This document shows, piece by piece, positions 32,161 to 38,015 of a stretch of 64,000 nt of DNA. This DNA is from Paracoccaceae bacterium (GTDB lineage Bacteria; Pseudomonadota; Alphaproteobacteria; Rhodobacterales; Rhodobacteraceae): contig JAQWQJ010000080.1 in assembly GCA_029244725.1 (NCBI GenBank), positions 1-64,000 of the forward strand, read 5' to 3'. Position numbers and translations under genes: made by a program. The notes beneath the pieces are model-generated. The model made no database searches. It saw only the letters and a list, made by a program, of their open reading frames with translations, and had not been told where the DNA came from. Each line of letters begins with the position of its first letter. Position 1 is the first letter of the stretch.

Positions 32161-32574
32161 ATGCATAGCCGAATTGAAACAAGCTTCAACCAACAGGCTA
32201 TGATGTCAACACTTGGTGCAAAGCTGACAGATGTTAGTGCAGGCCGCGTTATTATCACCGCCCCAATCTTGCCAACCAGCACTCAACAACAGGGCTTTGG
32301 GCACGCTGGTCTGACGTTTTCTATAGGGGATTCTGCCGCCGGTTATTCTGCGCTTACAATGATGGCCGAAGGACAAGAGGTCCTGACGACTGAAATGAAG
32401 ATTAACCTGCTAGCGCCAGCTAAGGGCGACTATCTGCGTGCTACGGGTAAAGTGGTCAAAGCGGGAAAACGCCTTGTCATTGTCACAGCCGAGGTTGAGG
32501 CAATCATTGGCGACCAAGCCACCACTATTGCCATCCTCCAAGGAACCATGGTTCCGGTTAATCTTCAGTCGTAA
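32161..32574 (+). CDS. PaaI-like hotdog thioesterase
   Basis: A 137-residue hotdog protein starting MHSRIETSF at 32161, with GAGG 7-10 bases before the ATG. It has the pattern QGFGHAGLTFSIGDSAAGYSALTMMAEGQEVLTTEMKINLLAPAKGD: a PaaI-type core in which the usual HGG is GHAG. Predicted acyl-CoA thioesterase of unknown substrate. The last 17 bases overlap the convergent CDGSH gene. Confidence 0.82.
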   Translation: MHSRIETSFNQQAMMSTLGAKLTDVSAGRVIITAPILPTSTQQQGFGHAGLTFSIGDSAAGYSALTMMAEGQEVLTTEMKINLLAPAKGDYLRATGKVVKAGKRLVIVTAEVEAIIGDQATTIAILQGTMVPVNLQS

Positions 32575-33193
32575 AGCCCGCGGCCTTGTGGCTGCCATCA
32601 CAAAACGGTTTCTTGTTTGATTGACCACACCGGCACAATCGAACGGCATTGGTTCGCGCAATTCTACGCCCGTTGCCGTTTATAACCTCAAGGTTACCAT
32701 CAAACTTTAACGATCCGTTGGGGTTCTCAGTTATTTCGACCGTACCATCCAACCCTTCGGCGCTGTCGCGATCGGTCACATCACATTCGCCCGTTGCGCG
32801 AAAATGCCCCTTTAGATGCGAATTGTCGCAAAACGGTTTGTTCTTGGACAACCCACATCTGCACAGCGTCGCACGCGTGATTGTCTGATCGCCAAAGCGA
32901 AAATCGCCCTTTAGCTTGATCGGCCCGTTCTCAGAAATCTGGGCGATGTTTGTTCCACTGGGAACCTCATCAAGACCACCATCTTTACGCTCAAACTGCA
33001 AAGCGCCCGACGGGCATGTCCGCACCATTGCCGCTATCTCATCGGCTGAACCGTTGTCCGGCAAGACCCACGGTCGACGGGACGGGTCAAACACTTGCGG
33101 CAAAGCCAACCAACATTTGCGCGAATGAACACACACCTGAAGATCAAAGGTTACTGCAATGTTTTCGCCTTCGTACCGCTTATTGCGTGCCAT
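32558..33193 (-). CDS. CDGSH iron-sulfur protein with N-terminal cluster-binding domain
   Basis: A 211-residue redox protein. The N-terminal domain (about 1-65) carries cysteines in CVHSRKCWLALP and RTCPSGAL, typical of the (4Fe-4S) mono-cluster domain found before CDGSH proteins. Two CDGSH repeats follow: CRCGLSKNKPFCDNSH, with all four ligands kept but N in place of G, and CRCGQSNKKPFCDGSH. The start MARNKRYEG at 33193 is preferred to the longer reading at 33226. The electron partner is unknown. Confidence 0.87.
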   Translation of the reverse strand: MARNKRYEGENIAVTFDLQVCVHSRKCWLALPQVFDPSRRPWVLPDNGSADEIAAMVRTCPSGALQFERKDGGLDEVPSGTNIAQISENGPIKLKGDFRFGDQTITRATLCRCGLSKNKPFCDNSHLKGHFRATGECDVTDRDSAEGLDGTVEITENPNGSLKFDGNLEVINGNGRRIARTNAVRLCRCGQSNKKPFCDGSHKAAGFTTED

Positions 33194-33278
33194 GAAGTTC
33201 CCTTTCGCTGCGCTGTTACCAGTCAACGTGAGGGTGCCTATGGGGTCAAGCCCAAAGCGGCTTTCAAAAAGCGCAGGA

Positions 33279-33761
33279 CTATCGCTTTAGGCGTTTCTCA
33301 ATTTGGCGGCGTTCCCAGTCGGCGCCCAAGGTGCCGTTTACGCCAAACACTGTGATCGCATGGATCGCAAGTCCCATGCCCCAGCCAACAAGGGCCCATA
33401 TCGCCCACAGGTATCCAGGGCTGGTCATTAAATTGATGATGAAGATGCCAATCATACCGACGACGAATGTCGCGGCGTGTGTATAAAACGCTTTCAGCTC
33501 ACCGACATACTCGATAGCTTCGCGTTCCTCGTCGGTAAGGCTGCTTCGTGTTGGGGTTTGGGAAGTACTCGTTTGCATGGCCGTTTCCTCTCTTAGGTCC
33601 TCAAATTGCAGATCAAGAGCAGAAGCCAGACACTTCAATGATTCAACGCTCGGGGTCGCACCGCGCTCAATGCGCTGCAATGTCCGAGGGCTGATACCCG
33701 CTATATATGCCAGTTGTTCCTGTGATAGACCGCGGTCCAACCGGATATCTCGAATGATCAC
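33279..33761 (-). CDS. XRE-family helix-turn-helix protein with 2TM domain
   Basis: A 160-residue protein with an N-terminal XRE helix-turn-helix (RDIRLDRGLSQEQLAYIAGISPRTLQRIERG, about 4-34) and a C-terminal membrane region with two hydrophobic segments (VVGMIGIFIINLM and WAIWALVGWGMGLAIHAI), typical of 2TM-domain proteins. The start is a GTG at 33761 with AGGAGA about 9 bases upstream; there is no ATG that keeps the HTH intact without a Cys-rich extension. Such membrane-tethered XRE proteins are common; target genes unknown. Confidence 0.82.
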   Translation of the reverse strand: MIIRDIRLDRGLSQEQLAYIAGISPRTLQRIERGATPSVESLKCLASALDLQFEDLREETAMQTSTSQTPTRSSLTDEEREAIEYVGELKAFYTHAATFVVGMIGIFIINLMTSPGYLWAIWALVGWGMGLAIHAITVFGVNGTLGADWERRQIEKRLKR

Positions 33762-33913
33762 TTTGCCTAATCTCCTGTCTTGTCCGGCATATGGGCAGGG
33801 ACGCGAAACAGCGCAACGACACGTGTCCGTCACGCCACGACATATACACGACATGGGACGGACACGCATTGTTTACAAGGCGATTTTGGCACGGCGAGGC
33901 GCCAAATCAGTGG

Positions 33914-34816
33914 TTAAGCAGTTAGACCTTCAGGCTCATCCAAGCCATTTGCGCGGCAGCAGGCTGTAACTGTGTTGGCCAAAAGACAAGCGATGGTCAT
34001 TGGCCCAACGCCGCCGGGTACGGGTGTGATTGCACCAGCAACCTCAGAGCAGCTTGCGAAATCTGCGTCGCCAACCAAGCGGGTTTTGCCTTCGCCTTTT
34101 TCAGGCGCGTCGATCCGGTTGATGCCAACGTCGATCACAGTCGCGCCCGGTTTAATCCAGTCGCCGGTCACCATTTCGGGGCGACCAACGGCCGCCACAA
34201 CGATGTCAGCACGACGTACAACGTCTTGGATGTCCTTGGTCCGCGAATGGGCGATGGTCACCGTGCAACTGTCCTTCAGCAACAGGTTCGCCATTGGCTT
34301 GCCAACAATGTTTGAGCGACCAACAACAACAGCGTTCATGCCTGAGATAGAGCCATGATAGTCACGTAGCATCATCAAACATCCAAGAGGCGTGCAAGGC
34401 ACCATCGACTTTTGACCGGTTCCAAGCAGACCAACATTCGAAATGTGGAACCCGTCGACATCCTTTGCCGGATCAATCGAATTGATCACAAGGTCTTCGT
34501 TTAGATGACCAGGCAATGGCAACTGCACCAGAATACCATGCACCGCCGGATCGTTGTTCAACTGGTCAATCAACGCCAACAGCACGTCTTCTGACGTGTC
34601 AACGTCCAGTTTGTGCTCATAGGAATTCATGCCGACTTCGGTGGTTTGCTTGCCCTTTGAGCGCACATAAACCTGAGACGCAGGGTCCTCGCCCACCAGC
34701 ACAACCGCCAAACCTGGGGTGATACCGTTTTCTTCTTTCAAACGCGTGACGTGGCCAGCCACTTTTTCGCGTACAGTTGCAGCAAAAGCTTTGCCGTCGA
34801 TGATATTTGCGGTCAT
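33914..34816 (-). CDS. folD: Bifunctional methylene-THF dehydrogenase / methenyl-THF cyclohydrolase (canonical FolD)
   Basis: A 300-residue enzyme interconverting 5,10-methylene-, methenyl- and 10-formyl-tetrahydrofolate with NADP. It keeps all expected residues: Tyr50 and Lys54 in YVRSKGK (catalytic Lys, Lys54 of E. coli), Gln in GILVQLPLP and Asp121 in KDVDGFH, plus the NADP loop [13 protein letters not shown]. It lies downstream of an exported protein gene and a second, altered folD. Its ATG overlaps the end of the exported protein gene. Confidence 0.95.
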
Positions 34817-35385
34817 TCGCTAATCCTTCCCAGATGTCGATCAATTGCGGTTTGGGCTGCAATCAGCCCTCGTAGTGAAAATACGGCCTGCCCAGCTTCG
34901 TGGGTGACCGTTAGAAAAAATCCGCGACGCATGGCCTCGACTGCGGGGGCCGCTGTAACCGGATCAACAATGCTCAGTGTTTGGGCAATGCGTATCCCGT
35001 CATGCGTTATGTCGCTCCAGGCCGCTGGATCGATATCCAAGGCTTGCCCATCGACCGACAGCGCAAACGGCGTTTGAACATCTAGCGGCAGATCGATGTC
35101 CCATAGCTCAAGCGTCCAGCCATCGTCCAAACGGTGTAGTGCTAAACGTTGTTTGCCATAGAAACTATCACCGGCCACCAGCACGTGATTGACAGTCCGA
35201 CATGCACCCTGCCCTTCGTCGGAACAGACATTCAGAAAGTCACCGTGATAGCTGCGCAATTCGCCAAACGGATGCATAAACCAACCAGTGTCAGCCTGCG
35301 TCGTCCCTGGCAGGACGAGCAGAAATGCCAACGCAAGTTGTTGTATCCGTATTCTCAAACCAGCCTCATTCGTCCGTTTTCGCAA
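34813..35385 (-). CDS. Exported protein of unknown function (weak IalB-like pattern)
   Basis: A 190-residue protein with a signal peptide ([19 protein letters not shown], about 13-31) and two cysteines spaced like those of IalB proteins ([12 protein letters not shown]). The C-terminal [19 protein letters not shown] is also reminiscent of that family. The resemblance is weak and the call is hypothetical. It lies between the two folD genes, overlapping the canonical one by four bases (ATGA) and the altered one by 20 bases, so it is co-transcribed with the one-carbon genes, but its role there is unclear. Confidence 0.7.
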
Positions 35386-36247
35386 ACGCTTTGCGATAGT
35401 GGTCCATCTGCATTCGTGTTGCGAGAACCGCGTTCTTCATCAGCGTCGCAACGGTCACAGGTCCTACCCCGCCCGGCACAGGTGTAATCCAACCTGCAAC
35501 ATCCGAACAGCTGTCAAAATCTACATCGCCAACGGTTTTTCCGTCCACGCGGTTGATACCAATGTCGATCACAGCCGCACCCGGCTTCAACATGTCGCCT
35601 GTAACTAGGCCCGCCTTGCCGACAGCCACAAACACGGCGTCGGCTGCTCGGCTGTGCATTGGAACCGAACGTGTCATGTGATGGCAAACGGTCACTGTGG
35701 CGCCCAAGCCCATCATAAGAAACGCAATTGGCTTACCCACGATTTCAGAGTGACCGATAACAGTGACGTTCAAACCCTCCATCGGCAATGGCAGAGTTTT
35801 AAGGATTTCCACGGCAGCAACAGCCGTACATGGACCTAAAGCGAGGTCGTTATATACAATGTTACCGATAGAGGCCGGATGCATGCCCTCAACGTCTTTC
35901 AACGGATGCACTGCTTTTTGCAAAACTTTTACAGGTATATGATCAGGCAAAGGGCGCTGGATGATGATACCGTTCACGCGCGGATCTGCGTTCAAACCTT
36001 GAACAATTCCAATCAACTGCTCAAGCGATGTTTCAGAAGGATAAGACCGCGCTTCAAACGTCACGCCCGCACTTTCTGCAGATTTTTGCTGATTGCGTAC
36101 ATAGAGTTCTGAGGCCGCTTCATCGCCAACTGACACAGAAACCAAATGAGGTTGCCAGCCAGCTTCGGCCAATTGACCGGCCTCGATTGCGATCTCTGCA
36201 CGCATTTTTGCGCCGATGGCTTTGCCGTCAATTACTTGCGCTCGCAA
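35366..36247 (-). CDS. FolD paralogue with substituted catalytic residues
   Basis: A 293-residue FolD-type protein. The NADP-binding half (VIGHSEIVGKPIAFLMM) and the end ([16 protein letters not shown]) are intact. In the active site the Tyr49 is kept but the catalytic Lys of YVxxK is Gln53 (YVRNQQK), and the usual KDVDG Asp is Glu120 (KDVEGMHP). Gln97 in IIIQRPLP remains. In other FolD proteins the Lys is needed for the cyclohydrolase step, so this protein may act only as methylene-THF dehydrogenase. It lies directly downstream of fhs, with a terminator between. Confidence 0.85.
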   Translation of the reverse strand: MRAQVIDGKAIGAKMRAEIAIEAGQLAEAGWQPHLVSVSVGDEAASELYVRNQQKSAESAGVTFEARSYPSETSLEQLIGIVQGLNADPRVNGIIIQRPLPDHIPVKVLQKAVHPLKDVEGMHPASIGNIVYNDLALGPCTAVAAVEILKTLPLPMEGLNVTVIGHSEIVGKPIAFLMMGLGATVTVCHHMTRSVPMHSRAADAVFVAVGKAGLVTGDMLKPGAAVIDIGINRVDGKTVGDVDFDSCSDVAGWITPVPGGVGPVTVATLMKNAVLATRMQMDHYRKAFAKTDE

Positions 36248-36338: not shown

Positions 36339-38015
36339 TTAGAACAAGCCTTCGATTTGGCCATCATCGTTCAGATGGATCGTCTCGGATGCTGGCTTGC
36401 GCGGAAGACCCGGCATGGTCATGATCTGACCGCAGACGACGACGACGAAACCAGCGCCAGCGCTAAGACGTACTTCGCGAACTGGAACCGAGTGACCTGT
36501 TGGCGCGCCGCGCAGAGATGGGTCAGTTGAGAACGAATACTGAGTTTTCGCCATGCAGACCGGCAAGTTGCCATAGCCCTGATCTTCCCAAGACTTAAGC
36601 TGATCGCGGATTGATTTGTCAGCCAGAACTTCGTCAGCGCGGTAGATCCGTTTGGCCACAGTCTCGATTTTCTCAAACAGAGGCATGTCATCAGGATAGA
36701 TAGGCGCGAAGTTACCTGTATCTGCGTCTGCAATTTCTGCCACGCGGATCGCAAGAGCCTCAGAACCTTTCGAACCGAATTCCCAGTGCTGCGATACAAT
36801 CGCTTCTGCACCGTGATCGGCAACGTAGTCTTTGATCGCTTGAACTTCTGCGTCCGTATCTGTGACGAAGTGGTTGATCGCAACAACAACTGGCACGCCG
36901 AACGACTTGAGGTTTTCGATGTGGCGCCCAAGGTTTGGACAACCAGCTTCAACAGCCTCTACGTTCTCTGGTCCGAGGTCCGCTTTCGCAACGCCACCGT
37001 TCATTTTCATCGCTCGGACAGTTGCCACACAGACAACTACCGATGGCGCAAGGCCAGCCTTACGGCATTTGATGTTCATGAACTTCTCAGCGCCGAGATC
37101 AGCACCAAAGCCAGCTTCTGTCACAACATAGTCAGTCAGCTTTAAAGCGGTTGATGTTGCGATAACCGAGTTACAACCGTGTGCGATGTTCGCGAATGGG
37201 CCGCCATGAACGAACGCTGGGTTGTTTTCCAGAGTCTGAACGAGGTTTGGCTGCATCGCGTCTTTCAATAGAACAGTCATCGCGCCTTCAGCTTTGATGT
37301 CACGGCAGAACACAGGCGTTTTGTCACGACGATAAGCAACGATAATGTCGCCAAGGCGTTTCTCAAGGTCCTTCAGATCTTTTGCTAGGCAAAGGATCGC
37401 CATAACTTCAGATGCCACTGTGATGTCGAAACCAGCTTCGCGTGGGTAACCGTTCGCAACGCCACCAAGCGACGCTGTGATTTGGCGCAGCGCGCGGTCA
37501 TTCATGTCTACAACGCGGCGTAGTGCAACGCGGCGGATGTCGATTTCTTGCTCGTTACCCCAATAGATGTGGTTGTCGAGCATCGCAGCCAACAGCGAAT
37601 GTGCAGACGTGATTGCGTGGAAATCGCCGGTGAAGTGAAGGTTCATATCCTCCATCGGAACAACCTGAGCGTAACCACCACCTGCAGCGCCACCCTTCAT
37701 GCCGAAGTTTGGACCGAGCGAAGCTTCGCGAATACAGATCATCGCGTTCTTACCGATTTTGTTCAGACCATCGCCGAGACCAACAGTCGTGGTCGTCTTG
37801 CCTTCGCCAGCAGGGGTAGGGTTGATCGCGGTAACAAGGATAAGTTTGCCATCTTTACGGTCTTGAACCGAATTGATGAAGTCTTGGCCGATCTTTGCTT
37901 TGTCATGGCCGTACGGCAACAGGTTCTCGTAAGGGATGCCCAGACGGTCGCCAATATCTTTGATTGGCTTCTTCTGTGCTTCGCGGGCAATCTCGATATC
38001 GGTCTTATAGCTCAT
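36339..38015 (-). CDS. fhs: Formate-tetrahydrofolate ligase
   Basis: A 558-residue ATP-dependent enzyme that joins formate to tetrahydrofolate as 10-formyl-THF, or runs in reverse. It has the P-loop [18 protein letters not shown] (about 67-84), [19 protein letters not shown] and [13 protein letters not shown]. With the FolD proteins it completes the link between formate and methylene-THF used in one-carbon oxidation or assimilation. The start at 38015 follows AGGATT. A promoter-like pair lies at 38199-38171 and a 5' leader with two hairpins precedes the gene. Confidence 0.96.

Follow-up and report, generated by a model that had tools for sequence, protein, structure and literature searches.

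A FolD subfamily of Alphaproteobacteria with Gln and Glu in place of the catalytic Lys and Asp: a candidate cyclohydrolase-deficient methylene-THF dehydrogenase

Introduction

In the window, the whole stretch of 64,000 nucleotides analysed here, fhs is followed by two folD genes in the same orientation, and one of them encodes Gln and Glu at the positions of a catalytic Lys and of Asp121. What does this second FolD (FolD2) do, and which protein would supply the cyclohydrolase if FolD2 catalyses a single step? Based on the sequence alone, the first-pass annotation had proposed a single-function methylene-THF dehydrogenase, or an enzyme of another folate, by which C1 flux from methylated sulfur or amine compounds could be directed.

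For the cyclohydrolase step, the Lys has been proposed to act as general acid/base, positioned by Gln98, while Asp121 holds the pterin (PMC3338484). This role of the Lys is itself unsettled, and the base of the cyclohydrolase could not be named for MTHFD2 (PMC9173628). In human MTHFD1, the K56E exchange gave the dehydrogenase a more than six-fold higher KM and a little-changed isotope effect (PMC9173628), and therefore dehydrogenase activity can survive loss of the Lys. Mutation of Asp121 reportedly affects dehydrogenase activity, and a single-function bacterial dehydrogenase, that of Peptostreptococcus productus, is also mentioned (PMC6443876). Papers on methyl oxidation treat FolD as bifunctional (PMC3160333, PMC3621897, PMC4543880). 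A text search of an evolutionary survey (PMC11064299) returned no mention of Alphaproteobacteria, and in the literature on methyl oxidation and FolD that was searched, a set that leaves out most subscription journals, no description of a FolD subfamily with Gln54 and Glu121 was found.

Results

FolD2 has the FolD fold and an altered active site

FolD2 (35366..36247, minus strand; 293 aa, TTG start) lies downstream of the gene for formate--THF ligase, fhs (36339..38015, minus strand), and upstream of the gene for a canonical FolD, FolD1 (33914..34816, minus strand). When FolD2 was aligned with the solved FolD proteins of P. aeruginosa, X. albilineans and E. coli, Gln53 (codon CAG, 36089..36091, minus strand) fell on Lys54 and Glu120 (GAG, 35888..35890, minus strand) on Asp121; the corresponding motifs are YVRNQ versus YVxxK and KDVEG versus KDVDG. 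Residue positions 54, 99, 121, 167 and 191 are given in E. coli FolD numbering from here on. The alignment thus confirmed the two substitutions that had been annotated in FolD2, as well as Lys54 and Asp121 in FolD1, which reaches 516.5 bits with the NCBIfam model NF010785 (cut-off 396). FolD2, tested against the same family of models, stays under the curated cut-off in all 25 listed of 30.

Both Pfam domains of the family are present in FolD2, PF00763 (THF_DHG_CYH) with 109.5 bits and PF02882 (THF_DHG_CYH_C) with 186.5 bits (cut-offs 32.8 and 27, respectively). An AlphaFold2 model (mean pLDDT 91.0, pTM 0.88) predicted an ordinary FolD fold, and in a structure comparison the 40 best rows all belonged to the FolD/MTHFD family, with Z scores of 24.9-39.5. 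The best match was FolD of H. pylori (Z 39.5, rmsd 1.8 over 282 residues). FolD2 is 36-44% identical to solved members. It shares with the bifunctional FolD/MTHFD proteins both domains, the predicted fold, Tyr50, Gln98 and the nicotinamide loop, but differs from them by the absence of Lys54 and Asp121, by Arg99 and His167/His191, and by its position in a separate clade.

Some minor features of the locus were also observed. A 190-codon ORF (34813..35385, minus strand) lies between folD2 and folD1 and overlaps each by a few bases. Its start resembles a signal peptide; no match was found in Pfam or NCBIfam at 1e-3 or in 80 relatives at 1e-8, and 15 of 77 relatives have a gap of ∼70-320 bases at the same place. 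On the other side, folD1 is adjoined by a gene for a helix-turn-helix domain fused to a 2TM domain (33279-33869, minus strand), and a protein with a Fer4_19 domain and CDGSH iron-sulfur motifs is encoded at 32558-33226 (minus strand). Elsewhere in the genome of the window, there is a weak third match to PF02882 (C130, 22 bits, under the cut-off).

The substitutions are fixed in FolD2 and absent from its partner

A scan of GTDB genomes yielded 557 stretches that encode a relative of FolD2, and the best 80 of the 557 were kept as close relatives; Sulfitobacter mediterraneus and Gemmobacter aquatilis are represented in this set. As the first-pass annotation had suggested, the substitutions were aligned across the paralogues. 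In the window and these 80 relatives, positions 54, 121, 99, 167 and 191 are Q, E, R, H and H in 81 of 81 proteins, and the FolD1 partners at the same loci have Lys54 and Asp121 in 78 of 78 cases. The same division was seen in a wider set, with Gln54/Glu121 in all 47 FolD2 rows and Lys/Asp in all 41 canonical rows. Because Gln54/Glu121 is found in 81 of 81 proteins, the substitutions are not the result of drift, and chance or a sequence error was ruled out.

Tyr50 and Gln98, which had been called intact, are kept in all 47 FolD2 rows, and the nicotinamide loop is invariant too. Sites that are fixed in the subfamily and differ from the canonical rows include K54Q, L99R, D121E, P143A, A/R167H, S/R191H and W255; besides L99R and P143A, F123M is a further change next to the folate site. 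Arg99 of the subfamily (Arg98 of FolD2, codon CGC, 35954..35956, minus strand; Leu99 in E. coli) adjoins the catalytic Gln98 and is invariant, both in the 47 FolD2 rows and in the window and its 80 close relatives. It could in principle stand in for the catalytic Lys and rescue the cyclohydrolase. Another Lys in the active site would have spoken against the first-pass reading: no new Lys is found at position 54, and Arg99 is a possible stand-in. A Lys elsewhere in the YxxxK helix was rejected for this role. At position 56 most rows carry a Lys or an Arg, but four do not (RAK pattern), and thus the helix has no constant basic residue.

Histidines occupy the 2'-phosphate positions of the cofactor site

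The NADP loop of FolD2 had been annotated as intact. This holds for the outline of the loop, in which GxSxxVGKP is kept, but not for the positions at which MTHFD2 has its 2'-phosphate arginines, R201 and R233, which hold the NADP 2'-phosphate or a phosphate ion (PMC9173628). A FolD2 member aligned to human MTHFD2 (5tc4) has His at both of these positions according to a motif-based mapping. They correspond to positions 167 and 191, that is, to His166 (codon 35750..35752, minus strand) and His190 (codon 35678..35680, minus strand) of FolD2. All 47 FolD2 rows have His/His here and none has an Arg at either position, whereas the pair is Arg/Ser in 36, Ala/Arg in three and Ala/Ser in two of the 41 canonical rows. 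FolD2 is possibly NAD-dependent, a use for which the His/His pair is suggestive but no proof.

FolD2 forms a single clade under purifying selection

FolD2-type genes occur in many Alphaproteobacteria, and the feature is wider than the first-pass annotation had assumed. Eight of the 142 genomes in a class sample encode a FolD2-type protein with 55-100% identity, and all other matches have at most 48%. In an order sample of 292 Rhodobacterales genomes the protein was found in 38, with at least 67% identity in 25 and 56-64% in 13; five of the 292 had no match of any kind at E ≤ 1e-40. Since most of the sampled Rhodobacterales (254 of 292) live without FolD2, its job is not a general one. A phylum sample of 397 genomes gave 27 matches at E ≤ 1e-75, of which 15 were FolD2-type by identity, all from the same class. 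The remaining 12 are 42-46% identical, and the five of them that were read all have Lys54. Those FolD2-type proteins of other lineages that were read carry the same Q/E/R/H/H signature.

A tree was calculated from 47 FolD2 rows, 41 canonical rows and one MtdA-like row; the 80 close relatives contributed 18 rows, and eight near-duplicates from other lineages were omitted. FolD2 is a single clade on a branch of length 3.17 with a support of 100/100, in a bootstrap that had not quite settled. A local duplication in Rhodobacteraceae was ruled out, as the subfamily spans several alphaproteobacterial families in this one deep clade. The MtdA-like row has a very long branch and joins near the canonical long branches and not FolD2.

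FolD2 and FolD1 are under equal purifying selection. For non-independent pairs with at least 88% identity, the median dN/dS was 0.068 for FolD2 (257 pairs) and 0.069 for FolD1 (246 pairs). As these values are so close, FolD2 is not decaying, and a decaying copy was ruled out.

A second candidate cyclohydrolase is present in nearly all genomes with FolD2

The genome of the window was searched for a separate cyclohydrolase, FchA, a check that the first pass had named. No match was found in the whole genome; therefore, FolD1 is its only candidate cyclohydrolase. The question was extended to 58 genomes with FolD2, made up of 38 from the order sample, six more from the class sample, nine more from the phylum sample and five more from the order of genome G015. 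All 38 from the order sample have at least two FolD matches, and a second FolD-family protein was found in five of the six added class-sample genomes and in all nine added phylum-sample genomes. In most of the 58 genomes this second protein is known by match alone. Lys54 and Asp121 were read in 13 of them, namely in the window, G022, G145, G157, G202, G257, G266, G398 and five class-sample genomes.

A search of 14 genomes from the order of G015 found FolD2 in six. A canonical FolD match is missing from five of the six, which carry FchA instead, always adjoining an MtdA-like gene, as at G015:C6:334500-351500 (L151). The sixth, G780, an assembly of 1190 contigs, has FolD2 and gave neither a second FolD match nor FchA. 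In total, 57 of the 58 genomes have another FolD-family protein, including the five with FchA and no canonical FolD; FolD2 without a candidate cyclohydrolase thus occurs once in 58, in a fragmented assembly. Even a genome of 1.2 Mb (G062) keeps both FolD2 and a canonical FolD.

FolD2 lies beside genes of C1 metabolism

In all 80 close relatives (the best 80 of 557) fhs lies upstream of folD2 on the same strand. In 77 of them folD1 lies downstream, and the other three loci end at a contig edge. The spacing between folD2 and folD1, measured between match ends, does not exceed 60 bases at 62 of these 77 loci. Two loci (L042 and L036) have additional or broken folD1 copies beside folD2, which are perhaps tandem duplications or assembly errors.

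The 33 FolD2 loci outside this set were queried by tblastn with a few C1 proteins; a locus can count twice. TMAO demethylase (Tdm) was found in ten, fhs with folD1 in five, formate dehydrogenase in two, sarcosine oxidase in one and a glutamine-synthetase-like protein in one, the latter being the locus from which the query was taken. At 18 of the 33 loci none of the queried genes was clear nearby; nine of these 18 have flanks of only 1.5 kb. The Tdm-like neighbour has DUF1989, GCV_T and GCV_T_C domains, and the neighbour of FolD2 in the 1.2-Mb genome has the architecture of sarcosine oxidase alpha. Some Tdm-linked loci carry an AraC-type gene, which may be a relative of TmaR, an AraC-type regulator of TMA catabolism (PMC13390433).

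At three loci (plasmid p-SCP4, L138 and L141) folD1 precedes folD2 in the reverse order fhs-folD1-folD2, and therefore two FolD2 branches joined fhs and folD1 in two orders. On p-SCP4 of Ponticoccus alexandrii (L170 4519-24825), formate dehydrogenase, fhs, folD1, folD2 and tdm are annotated, followed by serine-cycle-like genes (malate-CoA ligase, D-glycerate dehydrogenase and PEP carboxylase). This island resembles a methyl-oxidation pathway joined to a serine cycle. The FolD2 copy of Paracoccus aminovorans has no such C1 neighbour; choline genes lie 8 kb away. In the records of both species FolD2 is annotated as bifunctional.

In the genome of the window, 24 GCV_T matches exceed the cut-off, and 21 have E ≤ 4.3e-37. 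Ten of the 24 proteins were looked at; four are sarcosine oxidase alpha-like over most of their length and four have a SoxB-like oxidase part. The 24 matches form an unusually rich set of putative folate-dependent demethylases, and the genome therefore has many possible sources of methylene-THF. In Ruegeria pomeroyi, full use of the methyl groups of choline needs fhs (PMC4744692). The neighbouring TMAO demethylase and sarcosine oxidase genes support the amine part of the proposal that C1 flux from methylated compounds is handled here, but nothing was seen that would speak for the sulfur part.

Discussion

FolD2 is probably a cyclohydrolase-deficient methylene-THF dehydrogenase that accepts NAD+ at least as well as NADP+ and drains methylene-THF made by demethylases, with FolD1 or FchA carrying out the hydrolysis. 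Of the functions first considered, a single-function dehydrogenase is the best reading of the sequences, supported by the fixed substitutions, the lack of an FchA match in the genome of the window and the near-constant second candidate cyclohydrolase. Because dehydrogenase activity survives in K56E and because His takes the positions of R201 and R233 of MTHFD2, FolD2 is expected to oxidise methylene-THF, probably with NAD+. FolD2 would oxidise 5,10-methylene-THF to 5,10-methenyl-THF and release it; FolD1, or FchA where FolD1 is missing, would hydrolyse it to 10-formyl-THF. Fhs would take formate off 10-formyl-THF with a gain of ATP, and formate dehydrogenase would oxidise the formate. The methylene-THF would come from folate-dependent demethylases of sarcosine, dimethylglycine and TMAO. 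Since mutation of Asp121 reportedly affects the dehydrogenase, Glu121 might weaken the very step that FolD2 should keep.

A wider proposal is more tentative, at somewhat less than even confidence. It states that an unnamed, widespread alphaproteobacterial FolD subfamily is a NAD-linked, single-step catabolic dehydrogenase, part of a split module with FolD1 or FchA and Fhs that was assembled at least twice (fhs-folD2-folD1 and fhs-folD1-folD2) and is also carried by a plasmid, together with the genes for TMAO demethylase and formate dehydrogenase.

It is rather unlikely that FolD2 is still bifunctional, with Arg99 or a water held by Gln54/Glu121 replacing Lys54 and the other changes tuning cofactor, affinity or direction. 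Such a protein should sometimes have replaced FolD1, above all in the 1.2-Mb genome, but 57 of the 58 genomes have FchA or a further FolD-family protein, which argues against this reading, even though the invariance of Arg99 next to Gln98, the close fold match to the bifunctional H. pylori FolD and the undecided hydrolysis base of MTHFD2 (PMC9173628) all fit a retained cyclohydrolase. A changed substrate, which could be a different folate or pterin or a C1 unit bound to a carrier, would agree with the replacement of the pterin contact Asp121 (PMC3338484) by Glu and with the joint change of the folate-site neighbours in L99R, F123M and P143A. This is nevertheless quite improbable, as FolD2 adjoins enzymes that are known or expected to produce methylene-THF and, in fhs and folD1, the genes of two THF users.

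FolD enzymes work as dimers, and together with the constant operon pairing with FolD1 (77 of 80) this leaves a slight chance, the slimmest of those considered, that FolD2 serves FolD1 as an inactive or regulatory partner, for instance in mixed dimers. However, FolD2 has an invariant Tyr50, Gln98 and nicotinamide loop, its dN/dS equals that of FolD1, and in five genomes FolD2 occurs without FolD1, together with FchA and an MtdA-like gene.

As a cyclohydrolase-deficient dehydrogenase, FolD2 would resemble yeast MTD1 (1edz), a monofunctional NAD-dependent methylene-THF dehydrogenase (PMC11064299, PMC6443876), in expected behaviour, namely dehydrogenase activity without cyclohydrolase and the use of NAD. 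The two are related but distant in sequence (E 5.5e-19 over part of the profile), and in the fold comparison MTD1 (Z 29.3) ranks below bifunctional FolD proteins. In MtdA and FchA of methylotrophs the two steps are split over two proteins, as is proposed here, but FolD2 is derived from FolD and is usually partnered by a bifunctional FolD; the MtdA-like protein beside FchA in G015 shares 31% identity with FolD2 but not its signature. The folD of the chloromethane plasmid pCMU01 of Methylorubrum extorquens CM4 is dedicated to a methyl-oxidising pathway (PMC3621897), as is proposed for FolD2. Its product was not counted in the subfamily, being 43% identical to FolD2, in the range of canonical FolD.

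If the proposed function is correct, one FolD of many genomes bears the wrong name, bifunctional, and methyl oxidation in marine and other Alphaproteobacteria is modelled with the wrong cofactor and the wrong steps at the methylene-THF branch. The subfamily would also be a natural experiment on the residues of FolD bifunctionality, in which evolution has fixed the Lys-to-Gln change, and the reason for splitting the steps would be to keep catabolic NADH apart from biosynthetic NADPH.
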